From Pseudomonadota bacterium (GTDB taxonomy: Bacteria > Pseudomonadota > Alphaproteobacteria > Rickettsiales > SXRF01): DNA of 42,082 nt. A program made the translations under genes and the position numbers. The notes under the pieces are model-generated. The model did no database searches. It was not told the origin of the DNA and saw nothing but the letters and a program-made list of their open reading frames with translations. Of the stretch, positions 5,893-36,916 are shown piece by piece (position 1 is the stretch's first letter; every line of letters begins with the position of its first letter). The stretch lies in the NCBI GenBank assembly GCA_963205245.1, contig CAUJIB010000004.1, forward strand, positions 1-42,082, written 5' to 3'.

Positions 5893-7767
5893 ATGACCAA
5901 TAAAAATGAAGAAAAACTTAAATTTAGCGCGGAAATCAGTAAAGTTCTTCAACTAATGATTCATTCTTTATATACCAATAAAGATATTTTCCTACGTGAG
6001 CTTGTCTCCAATTCTTCAGATGCCTGCGATAAGTTGCGCTACGCTGCCCTCACCGAATCTTCCTTAATGGAAGGCGATAGCGACCTTTCAATCACTATTG
6101 AGGCAAATAAAGAGCAGAAAACCGTAACTATCACTGATAATGGTATCGGCATGAGCCGTGAGGAATTAATTGCTAATCTTGGCACAATAGCCAAATCCGG
6201 AACGCAAGAATTTGCAAGCAAGTTAACCGGTGACGACAAAAAAGATATGCCTTTAATTGGTCAATTTGGCGTGGGCTTTTATTCATCCTTCATGGTTGCC
6301 GATAAAGTGACGGTAGTTTCTACCAAAGCGGGTGCGAGTGAAAGTTTTATATGGGAATCTGAAGGATTAGGGGAATTTACTGTAACATCCACTGAAAAAA
6401 CCACACGTGGCACAAAAATAACCCTATATATTAAAGAAAATGCCGATGATTATCTGGATAATTTCCGCATCCGCCACATTGTACAAACTTATTCCGACCA
6501 TATCTCATTCCCGATTTATTTGCTGGACGAAGATAAAAACAGAGAACAGATAAATACCGCTTCTGCCCTATGGATGCGCTCTAAAAATGAGGTAAGCGAG
6601 GAAAAATATACAGAATTTTACCATCATGTTTCGCATATGATGGGAAGCCCATGGCTTACCCTGCATAATAAAGCCGAGGGAAAATTGGAATATACCAGTT
6701 TGCTATTTGTCCCATCCAGCAAACCGGTTGATTTATTCCACCCTGATCGTAAATCACGGGTAAAACTTTATGTAAAAAGGGTCTTTATTACTGAAGAGCA
6801 TGCCGAACTCGTGCCTTCTTACCTGCGTTTTTTGCGTGGCGTGGTAGATTCAGAGGATCTACCACTTAATATCAGCCGTGAAACTTTACAGCAAAATCCG
6901 CTAATTACTAAAATACGCGATGCAGTAGTTAAAAAATTCCTGTCTGAACTTAAGAAAAAAGCGGAAAGCGATGAGAATGAATATAAGAATTTCTGGAAAA
7001 ATTTTGGCGCGGTGGTAAAAGAAGGATTATGCGAAGCCTACAGTCCGCGCGAACAAATTCTGGAAGCATGCCGTTTCAACTCCAGCAATTTTGATAATGA
7101 CACTTTGGCAAGCCTTGACAGCTACATCTCTCGCATGAAGGAAGGTCAGGAAAATATTTTTTACCTGACGGGGGAAAATATCAACTCCATTCGCCAAAGC
7201 CCGCAGCTTGAGGGATTTACCTCACGTGGGATTGAAGTGTTATTGCTTAGCGACCATGTGGATGATTTTTGGGTGAATGTAGTGCTTGATTATAAGGGTA
7301 AACAATTCAAATCCATCACCCGTTCCGACATAAATCTGGAAAGCATCAAAAGCGAAAAAACAGATAAGCCGGAAGAAGAAAAAGCTGAAGCACCAAAGGA
7401 AAATATTGAAAAACTTTGTGAGCGCATAAAATCCATTTTAGGAAATGCGGTTGGCGAAGTACGCACCACGCAAAAATTGGGGCAAAGTGCGGTATGCCTT
7501 GCCACTAAAGAAGGCGGGATGGATTTCCGGTTGGAGCGTTTCCTGATTGAGCAAAAACAAATTGCCGCTGCTGCTGCCAAAATTCTGGAAATCAATCCTA
7601 AGCATCCAATAATCAAACATCTGGCAGAAAAAGGCAATGCCAATATTGATGATGCGGTATGGCTGCTGTTTGACCAAGCGCGAATTTTAGAAGGTGAAGA
7701 AATAACCGACCCCGCTGCCTTCACCCGCCGCCTGCAAAGCTTTGTAGAAAAAAGTCTGGCTGCTTAG
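5893..7767 (+). CDS. htpG: Chaperone HtpG (bacterial Hsp90)
   Basis: A 624-residue protein, the same length as E. coli HtpG. The N-terminal GHKL ATPase shows its motifs: IFLRELVSNSSDA with catalytic Glu36 and Asn40, DNGIGM at 82-87, and the lid glycines GQFGVGFYS from 123. Middle and C-terminal dimerisation domains follow, ending in FTRRLQSFVEKSLAA. Hsp90 is an ATP-driven cytosolic chaperone that remodels late-folding client proteins, usually with DnaK. The start is ATG 5893 with AGGA upstream. A sigma-32-like promoter precedes it. Its last 53 coding bases recur 800 bases downstream with only silent changes (see findings), which suggests that this 3' end was exchanged or rebuilt by an insertion. 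Confidence 0.97.
   Translation: MTNKNEEKLKFSAEISKVLQLMIHSLYTNKDIFLRELVSNSSDACDKLRYAALTESSLMEGDSDLSITIEANKEQKTVTITDNGIGMSREELIANLGTIAKSGTQEFASKLTGDDKKDMPLIGQFGVGFYSSFMVADKVTVVSTKAGASESFIWESEGLGEFTVTSTEKTTRGTKITLYIKENADDYLDNFRIRHIVQTYSDHISFPIYLLDEDKNREQINTASALWMRSKNEVSEEKYTEFYHHVSHMMGSPWLTLHNKAEGKLEYTSLLFVPSSKPVDLFHPDRKSRVKLYVKRVFITEEHAELVPSYLRFLRGVVDSEDLPLNISRETLQQNPLITKIRDAVVKKFLSELKKKAESDENEYKNFWKNFGAVVKEGLCEAYSPREQILEACRFNSSNFDNDTLASLDSYISRMKEGQENIFYLTGENINSIRQSPQLEGFTSRGIEVLLLSDHVDDFWVNVVLDYKGKQFKSITRSDINLESIKSEKTDKPEEEKAEAPKENIEKLCERIKSILGNAVGEVRTTQKLGQSAVCLATKEGGMDFRLERFLIEQKQIAAAAAKILEINPKHPIIKHLAEKGNANIDDAVWLLFDQARILEGEEITDPAAFTRRLQSFVEKSLAA
7714..7767 (+). repeat. Direct repeat copy 1: 3' end of htpG
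   Basis: The last 17 codons plus stop of htpG (AAFTRRLQSFVEKSLAA). They match 8514-8567 at exactly 800 bases offset. Four of 54 bases differ, all at third codon positions, including TAG against TAA. The two copies flank the hypothetical gene at 7771-8403. Confidence 0.9.
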
Positions 7768-7770
7768 GAT

Positions 7771-8403
7771 CTAATCAGCTGCGGTTCGCGTACGCCCAGT
7801 TCTTAGTGATAGCTTTGCCTGCACAGAATTTGAAACACCTAGCTCTTTAGAATAATTCTGAAGAGTTAGTATTGCCGTAGCTATTGCTGATGCAGTATCT
7901 TCTTTAAGGTTGTCATATGCTTCCCCATTGTCTTTCAATGAAAGGCTTTCATTCATAGCAGCTATAATTTTTTTATCGTATAGTGGATGCTTATCAAGTA
8001 ATTTTCCTAAATTGGTAGAAAAATTTTCTTGAGAAACATCTACCAACAAACGGGTTATACTTCCGTCACCATTTTTTCTACAATCTTTTATTTCGCTTTC
8101 TATACCAGATTGCTTTAGAATATCTGCCAATTGTTTTACATTATCGTATAAATTTTCACGTACTACTGCATGATCACTGTCGCCGCTTGTATTTTTAGCC
8201 CGTAAATCTAACATGCTTGGTTTAACAGTTGTTTCTATTCCTTCTACATTCTGCATAGGAGCAGAACCTGCACCAGCTTCAATATGATGTGAACCAACTG
8301 TAGATACTGTGTATTCCTTCCCAAGGCTTTTTAAAACTCTATTTATATCCTGATAAGCTTTTTCTTTTTTTTGTTCTAAAGATTCAAATGATAGAAAACT
8401 CAT
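7771..8403 (-). CDS. Hypothetical protein, cargo of the htpG-end insertion
   Basis: I do not recognise this 210-residue protein. It has no signal peptide, no membrane segment and no known motif. It is soluble, mixed alpha/beta in look, with a charged N-terminal helix (SLEQKKEKAYQDINRVLKS), a Gly/Ala-rich stretch near residue 43, and an Arg/Thr-rich end (SLRTGRTRTAAD). The start at ATG 8403 is supported by GGAG 9 bases upstream. It is convergent with htpG, the stops being only 3 bases apart, and it lies inside the DNA bounded by the two htpG 3'-end copies. That position suggests it arrived with, or was trapped by, the duplication. Confidence 0.6.
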   Translation of the reverse strand: MSFLSFESLEQKKEKAYQDINRVLKSLGKEYTVSTVGSHHIEAGAGSAPMQNVEGIETTVKPSMLDLRAKNTSGDSDHAVVRENLYDNVKQLADILKQSGIESEIKDCRKNGDGSITRLLVDVSQENFSTNLGKLLDKHPLYDKKIIAAMNESLSLKDNGEAYDNLKEDTASAIATAILTLQNYSKELGVSNSVQAKLSLRTGRTRTAAD

Positions 8404-8513
8404 AAAAACTCCATAAATATTAATTTATATCAATATATCAGAAAAACCTATAATAACAAGATATTAATAAAAACAAAAAAATCTTGCGCATTATCTTAGT
8501 ACAGAACGCAGAG

Positions 8514-8567
8514 GCCGCCTTTACCCGCCGCCTTCAAAGCTTTGTAGAAAAAAGTCTGGCTGCTTAA
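8514..8567 (+). pseudogene. Direct repeat copy 2: orphan htpG 3'-end fragment
   Basis: The sequence codes AAFTRRLQSFVEKSLAA and a TAA stop, in the same strand as htpG, but has no start or upstream htpG sequence. Upstream of the Ala codon at 8514 the similarity to htpG ends abruptly. The protein is identical to copy 1 over these 17 residues while the DNA has silent differences, so the two copies were separated and kept under coding constraint before ending up side by side. It is probably the displaced native htpG tail, or the tail carried in by an insertion. Confidence 0.8.
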
Positions 8568-8573
8568 GAAGCG

Positions 8574-8622
8574 GATGGCGGAAACAGATGACTGATGACA
8601 AGCATATCTGTCATCCGCCATC
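8574..8622. repeat. Inverted repeat after the htpG-tail copy
   Basis: GATGGCGGA (8574-8582) pairs with TCCGCCATC (8614-8622), with a 31-base loop that itself carries GATGA/TCATC-like pieces. It lies between the orphan htpG tail and the end of ssb. It could be a palindromic intergenic element or a weak terminator; there is no T run. Confidence 0.45.
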
Positions 8623-8647
8623 TGTTATCCGTCACCTTTTTTACAAA

Positions 8648-9115
8648 CTAAAACGGTATTTCGTCATCCATTAATTCAGCGGGTGCTTTTTGCCCTGATG
8701 AAGATGGTTGTGAATAGCTATTGCCATAATTTCCACCGCCAGAACTTTCGCCAGAGCCTGCATTTTTACCATCAAGCATGGTAAGGACACTGCTGAAACC
8801 TTGCAGCACCACCTCGGTTGAGAATTTTTCGTGACCATCTTTATCTGTCCATTTGCGGGTTTGCAGCTGACCCTCAACATAAACTTTTGAACCCTTTTTA
8901 AGATAGTTTTTTACAACATTCACCAAACCATCATTAAAAATTACCACGCGGTGCCATTCAGTTTTTTCTTTACGCTCGCCAGTATTTTTATCTTTCCAGC
9001 TTTCAGAAGTTGCAATGGCAAGGTTAGCAATTTCCCGACCATCCTGCGTCGAACGTATTTCAGGATCGCGCCCCAAATTACCAATTAAAATCACTTTATT
9101 TACACTGCCAACCAT
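8648..9115 (-). CDS. ssb: Single-stranded DNA-binding protein
   Basis: A 155-residue SSB. The N-terminal OB fold begins [19 protein letters not shown] and contains the [20 protein letters not shown] segment. A Gly/Ser/Gln-rich linker follows, and the C-terminus is DDEIPF, the conserved acidic tip that recruits repair and replication partners. SSB coats single-stranded DNA as a tetramer. The start at ATG 9115 has GAGAGGTGAT directly upstream as ribosome-binding site. Length is normal for the family. Confidence 0.97.
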
Positions 9116-35503: not shown

Positions 35504-35921
35504 AGAAATCACAAAATCTTCTGGAAAAACCACAACAGCAACTCTTTCAGTAATTGCACAAGATACTCATATATTAGGATCATTAATAAGCGGCGGAAGT
35601 TTTGATTTTGAGGGAACAATCAATGGCAATATCAGCTGCCATACCCTTACAATTAGGAAAAATGCCAATGTCAAAGGAGATATTAAAGCCGATACGCTTA
35701 ATGTATATGGCAAAATAGAAGGAATTATCCATGCAACAAATGTTAACCTATATTCTGGATGCCATGTAGAAGGAATAATATTGCACGAGAATATTTCTAT
35801 AGAAAACGGTGCATTTATGGATGGTAAATGCAAGCGGATAGATAAAGTATCCGAAAATGATTATGAAACAGAAAATTCTGAAAATACAGTATATAACACG
35901 GCTATAAGACTTATAAGTTAG
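35484..35921 (+). CDS. Bactofilin
   Basis: A 145-residue protein with the short beta-helix of bactofilins: DTHILGSLISGGSFDFEGTINGNI, then repeated rungs LTIRKNANVKGDIKADTLNVYGKIEGII and NVNLYSGCHVEGIILHENISIENGAFMDG. The N-terminal 25 residues are basic and disordered, the C-terminal 25 acidic. Bactofilins polymerise without nucleotide and scaffold wall enzymes. The gene overlaps the M23 gene by 20 bases (GGAGCTGG as its ribosome-binding site), which supports a hydrolase-scaffold pair. Confidence 0.93.
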   Translation: MVFRKTKEITKSSGKTTTATLSVIAQDTHILGSLISGGSFDFEGTINGNISCHTLTIRKNANVKGDIKADTLNVYGKIEGIIHATNVNLYSGCHVEGIILHENISIENGAFMDGKCKRIDKVSENDYETENSENTVYNTAIRLIS

Positions 35922-36004
35922 TTAAATAACTTGTATTGTATATTGTCATATAACCGTCATAATTGATTCACTCAAGTTTAACTGCATTTCCTATAATTAT
36001 TTGC

Positions 36005-36010
36005 TATAGT
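36005..36010 (+). promoter_or_regulatory. Extended -10 promoter candidate
   Basis: TGC-TATAGT matches an extended -10 element, 26 bases before the start of the 141-residue gene. No convincing -35 is seen. Confidence 0.3.
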
Positions 36011-36036
36011 ACAATATAGTTAATACCGGAACATAT

Positions 36037-36462
36037 ATGGAACAAACTAATGGCAATAACGTAGTTGTAAACGGAGTGGTGCTACCTAATCATGTGGTGA
36101 TGGAGCTCCAACGTTTAGGACGTGCACTGGAATGGTATAATTCTGGTGAACTGCATAGCGCAGTTCTTGCCTGTGCCGTGGATAGGAAATTGATAGATGA
36201 TCCTAACGGTGTAAATTTCATGGATCAACTGGAGTTAACTGATGAAGAAAGGCGTAAAACCGAATATTATAACCATGATGGCGAACATTATTATTCAGAG
36301 TATAAGAGAAAGAAAGAAATAGAAGAAGAGCTGGAACGAGAAAAAGAACTAGAGCGCGAAACTAAAAACAAACCAAACAAAATATTGTCTTTCTGCAAAT
36401 ACCTTAGAGAAAGACGGGCAAAAAAACTAAGTGAAGAAGAAAAACTAGAATCTACATATTGA
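36037..36462 (+). CDS. Hypothetical charged protein
   Basis: A 141-residue protein without signal peptide or membrane segment. I do not recognise it. It starts with an Asn/Val-rich stretch, has a compact middle (MELQRLGRALEWYNSGELHSAVLACAV) and ends in a strongly charged helix (about residues 87-140: KKEIEEELEREKELERETK and on), probably a coiled coil. It lies alone between the bactofilin gene and the convergent ftsB. Confidence 0.6.
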   Translation: MEQTNGNNVVVNGVVLPNHVVMELQRLGRALEWYNSGELHSAVLACAVDRKLIDDPNGVNFMDQLELTDEERRKTEYYNHDGEHYYSEYKRKKEIEEELEREKELERETKNKPNKILSFCKYLRERRAKKLSEEEKLESTY

Positions 36463-36529
36463 TAAAATTATAGTCTGTACGAGATATAATAATACATCAT
36501 TATGTTTTGTGTAAGCTTGCTTCGCAGAG

Positions 36530-36569
36530 CAAAATCATGCCAGAATTTAAGTACTGGTCTATGATTTTG
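36530..36569. terminator. Imperfect hairpin between convergent genes
   Basis: CAAAATCAT (36530-36538) pairs with ATGATTTTG (36561-36569); inner CCAG/CTGG add stem. The 9-base outer arm is perfect. With no T run, it is a weak terminator or an intergenic repeat. Confidence 0.4.
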
Positions 36570-36574
36570 ATACT

Positions 36575-36916
36575 CTAATCTTTATCAATATCATTATCCA
36601 AAAATACCACTACTTCGTTTTTACCGGATATTCCCAGAACCGAGCGCGCTTGCTCATCAAGCAAGTCTAAATCCAAACTATTACTGCTTAGTTTCTTGAC
36701 TTTATTTTCCAGAGATTCACGCTTGGTTTTTATTTCTTCAAGCTCTGCCCTAAGAGTGTCCAGCTTACTGGTTTCACGCAAAAGCGCAATTACACCGCGT
36801 TCACCGCTTAGGGTATGGAAGCCAAGATAAAATAATAATAATACGCAAAAAAGCGATCCTATGGCACGTTTCTGCATAGGTGGGCGCACATCCAAATTAT
36901 TACTGTATCTAGCCAT
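36575..36916 (-). CDS. ftsB: FtsB/DivIC-type septum protein
   Basis: A 113-residue protein from ATG 36916 (the frame is open to 36928 with TTG). One membrane segment (IGSLFCVLLLFYLGFHTLSG, about 18-37) precedes a periplasmic coiled coil (LLRETSKLDTLRAELEEIKTKRESLENKVKKL). This is the layout of FtsB, which links FtsQ and FtsL in the divisome. The gene is directly downstream of eno on the same strand, the usual alphaproteobacterial context, with 56 bases between them. Confidence 0.88.
   Translation of the reverse strand: MARYSNNLDVRPPMQKRAIGSLFCVLLLFYLGFHTLSGERGVIALLRETSKLDTLRAELEEIKTKRESLENKVKKLSSNSLDLDLLDEQARSVLGISGKNEVVVFLDNDIDKD

Follow-up and report, generated by a model that had tools for sequence, protein, structure and literature searches.

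A duplicated htpG 3' end enclosing a single gene in an uncultured Rickettsiales-type bacterium, with the same arrangement recurring at core genes of a sister species

The htpG gene (Hsp90) of an uncultured Rickettsiales-type bacterium is followed by one unrelated gene and then by a second copy of its own 3' end, which raises the question of how a gene came to lie between two tails of a core gene that is still intact. The locus is located in a window of 42,082 nucleotides, i.e. the whole stretch of DNA analysed here, a single contig from a draft genome of 1.88 Mb (G000). The nearest relatives of G000 are metagenome-assembled genomes (MAGs) labelled Rickettsiales bacterium, Pseudomonadota or Alphaproteobacteria. 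By taxonomy it shares one genus with SXRF01 (G002), CAUJHR01 (G003) and the sister species JAOAUZ01, a Rickettsiales MAG (G001). Every genome compared is a draft MAG, and about 2 Mb of the genus were surveyed, as stretches rather than whole genomes.

In the window, htpG (5893 to 7767, + strand) codes for an intact protein of 624 amino acids, orthologues of which are present in 84 of 90 relatives. Its last 54 nucleotides form tail copy 1 (7714 to 7767, + strand), the working 3' end of the gene, which encodes AAFTRRLQSFVEKSLAA and ends with TAG. The stop codon of a convergent ORF of 210 amino acids (7771 to 8403, - strand) lies 3 bp from the htpG stop; this ORF belongs to no known family and has an SD-like GGAG ahead of its ATG. 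Its start is separated from tail copy 2 by an AT-rich spacer (8404 to 8513), for which searching detected no relative. Tail copy 2 (8514 to 8567, + strand) is the displaced htpG 3' end, with the same 17 residues and TAA as stop, without the gene body. Between copy 2 and ssb (8648 to 9115, - strand) lies a strong hairpin-forming repeat with a GGATGAC-type motif (8568 to 8645, z -5.1), a small dispersed palindrome of which a copy with 82% identity is found at positions 10503-10568 of contig C85 of the same genome. The next conserved gene on the 3' side of ssb in G001 and G003 is rppH and not htpG.

The preliminary description of this locus had reported a repeat at an offset of 800 with only silent differences, and the comparison bears it out. 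Positions 7714-7767 and 8514-8567 are identical at 50 of 54 bases with an offset of exactly 800 (52 of 56 for 7714-7769 and 8514-8569), and a chance origin is excluded because, apart from copy 2, no sequence on either strand of the window matches copy 1 at more than 27 of 54 positions. The two tails are separated by 746 bases with the 210-aa gene as the single ORF. They differ by GCT/GCC, TTC/TTT, CTG/CTT and TAG/TAA, and both read AAFTRRLQSFVEKSLAA up to the stop; all three sense differences are thus silent (p about 0.017), in addition to the synonymous stop. From the window locus alone the all-silent argument is modest; it becomes strong because the same structure is found in G001, where all 11 sense changes between the htpG tails are silent (p about 6.5e-8 if unselected), which indicates that two functional alleles met there. 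The earlier suggestion of two separate htpG alleles is supported. Divergence does not separate a native from a foreign copy in the window, and codon usage of the tail copies gave no such call either, the stop-codon fractions of G001 being spoiled by masked N bases. About 10 nt past the functional tail, positions 7778-7797 match part of the G001 aguA insert described below (contig C6, 382459-382440) at 14 of 20 bases (GCTGCGGTTCGCGTACGCCC and GCAGCGTTTTCGTACAACCC, respectively); this match is absent at the other two loci and may be due to chance.

The htpG tail of G001 is 77 nt long, with its copy 581 bp downstream and an enclosed 95-aa gene unrelated to that of the window. Past copy 2, the G001 locus is collinear with G003, in which htpG has a single tail and is directly followed by rplU, so that G003 shows the unoccupied state of the site filled in G001. 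The initial proposal, an insertion-type event affecting the 3' end of htpG with the gene kept intact, thus finds support in the single-tail site of G003 and in a second, independent filled site in G001.

Further tail duplications were searched for by a survey anchored on the stop codons of ORFs in stretches of G000, G001 and G003 and a little of G002 (2,334 + 538 + 686 tails, about 3,560, with 72 kb of the G001 stretch masked). In the main survey set, 9 tails scored at least 15, versus 0.5 expected from mismatched pairs used as control. Two loci besides htpG were found in G001, namely aguA and leuA, names that were assigned by interpreting the protein sequences. The other strong scorers, judged from their sequences, resemble paralogues in tandem or repeats, among them pilin-like and curli-like ones. 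A tandem gene array at about 77,691-80,420 of contig C4 of G003 has recurring tails of the NVSNVSQPGNGNS type, which by eye are curli-like repeats. An earlier survey with a strict 45-nt filter had returned htpG alone, with aguA as a weaker match; this match was first taken for paralogy, an interpretation overturned by inspection of the locus and by the stop-anchored survey.

The key new result is that the same architecture recurs in the sister species at three core genes, htpG, aguA and leuA, and the view of a phenomenon specific to htpG has therefore to be abandoned. At each G001 locus the tails enclose about 0.5-1 kb with one gene, which is different each time. The aguA tail of about 37 nt is copied 926 bp downstream; the two tails enclose a convergent ORF of 216 amino acids that is weakly related to M48/DUF2268 proteases (Zn-protease-like), and the empty site is found in the genomes G003, G008 and G010, where aguA is directly followed by a yihY-like gene. 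The leuA tail of 83 nt is copied 1080 bp downstream and the intervening 267-aa ORF, P-loop-like, is codirectional. In all four cases the addition is conservative: the tails measure 37-83 nt, just one gene is enclosed, whichever its orientation, and the core gene keeps its function.

The region downstream of aguA has additional features. In G000, the 3' end of aguA is followed by a different convergent ORF of 314 amino acids, without visible copy of the aguA tail. This ORF (locus L235, contig C90, about 35,829-36,773) belongs to no known family and contains internal repeats of about 35 residues (..NISSIL..G..); their TAL-repeat-like look has no support from Pfam and is not claimed. In G001, the strand opposite to aguA encodes, between the aguA stop and the protease-like ORF (contig C6, 382330-382470), what appears to be the C-terminal part of a further protein (EDYGNILHRGWNEPSDELKQQLRQHMGC); this fragment resembles a small gene located downstream of rpmA in G001 and G003.

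Tail copies differ by 7-20%, mostly at silent positions. The leuA tails have 10 differences in 81 nt, with one amino-acid change (L/S) located outside the junction, and copy 2 of aguA carries two amino-acid changes within its 37-nt tail, as expected for a displaced, decaying end. Between G001 and G003, the last 17 codons of htpG show 16 silent changes versus about 9.5 expected (gene mean 0.56 per codon), whereas the last 13 codons of aguA show only 2 changes versus about 6.9 expected (gene mean 0.53 per codon). The windows neighbouring the tail in both genes are nearer the gene average, the anomaly in G001 being confined to the tail. These outliers, each weak singly at roughly p 0.03 (Poisson estimate), lend weak support for G001 htpG and aguA to the idea that, if an insertion took place, copy 1 would be the newcomer.

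With moderate confidence, we propose that a short DNA carrying one gene together with a core-gene tail entered by a crossover in the resident tail, and that this recurs at other core-gene ends. This proposal starts from the observed repeats, their mostly silent differences, the differing single-gene contents, the empty sites and the recurrence at three genes. The incoming DNA, probably circular, would come from a related strain or species and consist of one gene and the final 40-80 bases of a core gene (htpG in the window), and a crossover within the tail of the resident gene would bring it into the chromosome by conservative insertion. The two copies would then be attL/attR-like, because the incoming tail would take over as the functional 3' end of the core gene, with the resident one pushed downstream. 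The same process may have acted at other core-gene ends of the genus, as at aguA and leuA in G001, and the G000 locus has additionally been reshaped by a chromosome exchange placing ssb downstream. The enzyme may be RecA, using the homology of the tails, or a site-specific integrase that is distant or has been lost.

Several observations stand against insertion. As the preliminary description had stated for the window, no integrase is encoded inside any of the inserts, nor is any recognised endonuclease, and the 746-bp window insert has no PHROG match and carries no phage genes. Tyrosine recombinases, which count in favour of insertion, are present in all four genomes (G000 to G003, 5-10 matches each). 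No htpG-like tail was found in the 1.5-kb flanks of 20 of the 32 integrase matches. No common dyad or core was detected when the tails of the loci were compared, and a single dedicated integrase is hard to reconcile with three unrelated targets, for which three specificities would be needed. The htpG tail was not found in IMG/VR viral contigs or in phages, and plasmids gave only a 48% match at chance level. A literature search found no report of htpG as an integration site. One may speculate, with rather little confidence, that these Rickettsiales have a class of single-gene cassettes for which the terminal 40-80 bp of a core gene serve as recombination site, a one-tailed circle excised by tail-tail recombination inserting in the same gene of a related cell and replacing the gene end each time by a synonymous one, without an integrase of its own. 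RecA acting on short tails and one-sided homologous import (PMC3240628) are both conceivable mechanisms, the latter being disfavoured because the tail lengths are short and similar.

The strongest competitor, which we nevertheless consider improbable, is homology-facilitated illegitimate recombination, in which linear DNA of a related species, containing the end of a core gene and its neighbour, would recombine homologously within the gene at one end, while a non-homologous joint would attach the other end immediately before the resident tail. Such a process can do without an integrase and is open to any core gene, in keeping with the loci observed, and one-sided homologous import has been described for bacteria with natural competence and, although very rarely, for conjugation in E. 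coli (PMC3240628). In addition, the G001 sequence after copy 1 is weakly like the rplU leader (p 0.009-0.02), as an htpG-rplU junction of a donor would be. However, copy 2 measures 37-83 nt at all four loci, in genes of 1.1-1.9 kb, and these short and similar lengths count against an illegitimate joint because joints at random positions would be expected to leave remnants of very different length. The restriction of the divergent tract to the tail also argues against this process and agrees better with a crossover within the tail.

For the window alone, the origin of the enclosed gene has to be considered separately. The 210-aa protein has no convincing relatives in GTDB contigs, viral contigs, phages or plasmids, and no convincing match in Pfam, NCBIfam, PHROGs, PADLOC or PDB; its AlphaFold model from the single sequence is unusable (mean pLDDT 37). 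The only relative found is a 152-aa ORF of G003 (30% identity over 86 aa, E 5e-5 in a single comparison), which is the best non-self match among 4,622 ORFs, albeit with an E of 0.21 in that search, and a profile search restricted the pair to G000 and G003. The G003 ORF (L094, 4257-4715) is located between rppH and ssb on the same strand as ssb, and its stop codon abuts that of rppH (TGATCA). Because this weak homologue lies beside ssb, the 210-aa gene may be a former neighbour of ssb rather than the passenger that the preliminary description had considered possible; the G003 homologue fits inheritance of the window gene better than its import. The gene may have arrived with the insert or may already have been the neighbour of ssb. 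The same 746 bases, which the preliminary description had proposed to look for at other htpG ends, were found at none.

The gene orders around ssb differ within the genus. G001 and G003 have the orders htpG-rplU and rppH-ssb, whereas G000 has htpG-(insert)-ssb and rppH-rplU, which corresponds to a reciprocal exchange at window positions 7767/8648 and at L092:5915-6071. If the order of G001 and G003 is the older one, ssb has therefore been brought beside htpG in G000 by chromosome exchange. This explains why the empty site predicted earlier was recovered only in part: a single tail exists in G003, in front of rplU, but no relative has an htpG tail followed by the sequence from 8568 onward and ssb. 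It also raises the possibility, which we regard as unlikely, that the junction of htpG with the 210-aa gene and copy 2 are by-products of the rearrangement in the window, the gene having always been beside ssb and the tail copy having been left between them. The G003 homologue, which agrees in position and strand, as well as the reciprocal junctions rppH-rplU and htpG-ssb, are in line with this scenario, which leaves unexplained both the tail duplications at htpG, aguA and leuA in G001 and the synonymous nature of all four differences between the window copies.

That copy 2 is what is left of a tandem htpG duplication, or that the assembly is chimeric here, is very improbable. G000 is a fragmented MAG, and some genomes of the order do have two full htpG genes, but these belong to other families or genera; the family itself has no second htpG, and no tandem duplication, the observation named beforehand as contrary to insertion, was seen in it. 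Among 344 genomes of the order, a second htpG tail was found in G000 and G001 only, in the latter on a 925-kb contig of an independent genome, and the pattern extends to other genes. Least probable of all, with hardly any credence on our part, is a homing-endonuclease element that supplies a substitute gene tail, by analogy with the mORFs of fungal mitochondria, which have the same anatomy of a foreign C-terminal end, an ORF, a displaced native end and synonymous differences (PMC3630166), as the match of the 210-aa ORF to LAGLIDADG_3 (E 0.012, 16.2 bits) is below the curated cut-off of 22.5 and missing in the G003 homologue, so that the assignment was rejected, and the other inserts hold unrelated ORFs (P-loop-like and Zn-protease-like).

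Insertion by a crossover in the tail can be compared with known systems. Cis-mobilizable elements (CIMEs) occupy, for example, the 3' ends of fda, rpmG and rpsI in streptococci and measure 1.2-13 kb in their classical form or 130-220 bp as microCIMEs (PMC7563491). As in CIMEs, direct repeats at the 3' end of a protein gene flank the inserts described here, one copy on the element side rebuilds the gene, the content is cargo only, without recombinase of its own, and unoccupied sites exist, at htpG in G003 and at aguA in G003, G008 and G010. Unlike CIMEs, they are one-gene inserts of 0.5-1 kb at three unrelated targets in one genus, and no related ICE/IME or integrase was found at the same site in the 344 genomes of the order, phages, viral contigs or 20 integrase loci. 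For prophage e14 at icd of E. coli K-12, the account in PMC11148124, citing Hill et al. 1989, gives a duplicated gene end of 165 bp with 12 nucleotide changes and two conservative amino-acid changes. As far as that account goes, the upstream copy of the gene end is functional and the downstream one displaced, as here, although e14, being a prophage, brings an integrase of its own and the present inserts contain one orphan gene only. A crossover in the tail would fit what CIMEs and e14 do in an enzyme-catalysed version. The mORF-associated C-terminal hybrids of fungal mitochondria, known for atp6, atp9, cox2 and nad3 (PMC3630166), also share the fusion of a foreign end and the occurrence of several targets per genome; their ORF codes for a LAGLIDADG or GIY-YIG endonuclease, whereas the ORFs found here are unrelated to one another and lie in a bacterial chromosome. 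Integron gene cassettes are a poor fit, as the repeats here are the coding tails of different genes.

Taken together, the arrangement looks like a recurring way to add genes one at a time while the core gene stays undamaged, in an order whose reputation rests rather on the reduced genomes of intracellular bacteria. At the sequence level it would document how core genes acquire lineage-specific (orphan) neighbours without harm, and bacterial loci resembling the hybrid genes of fungal mitochondria become testable. As the tail-swap signature is easily scanned for, the frequency with which genes arrive in this way could be measured across bacteria.
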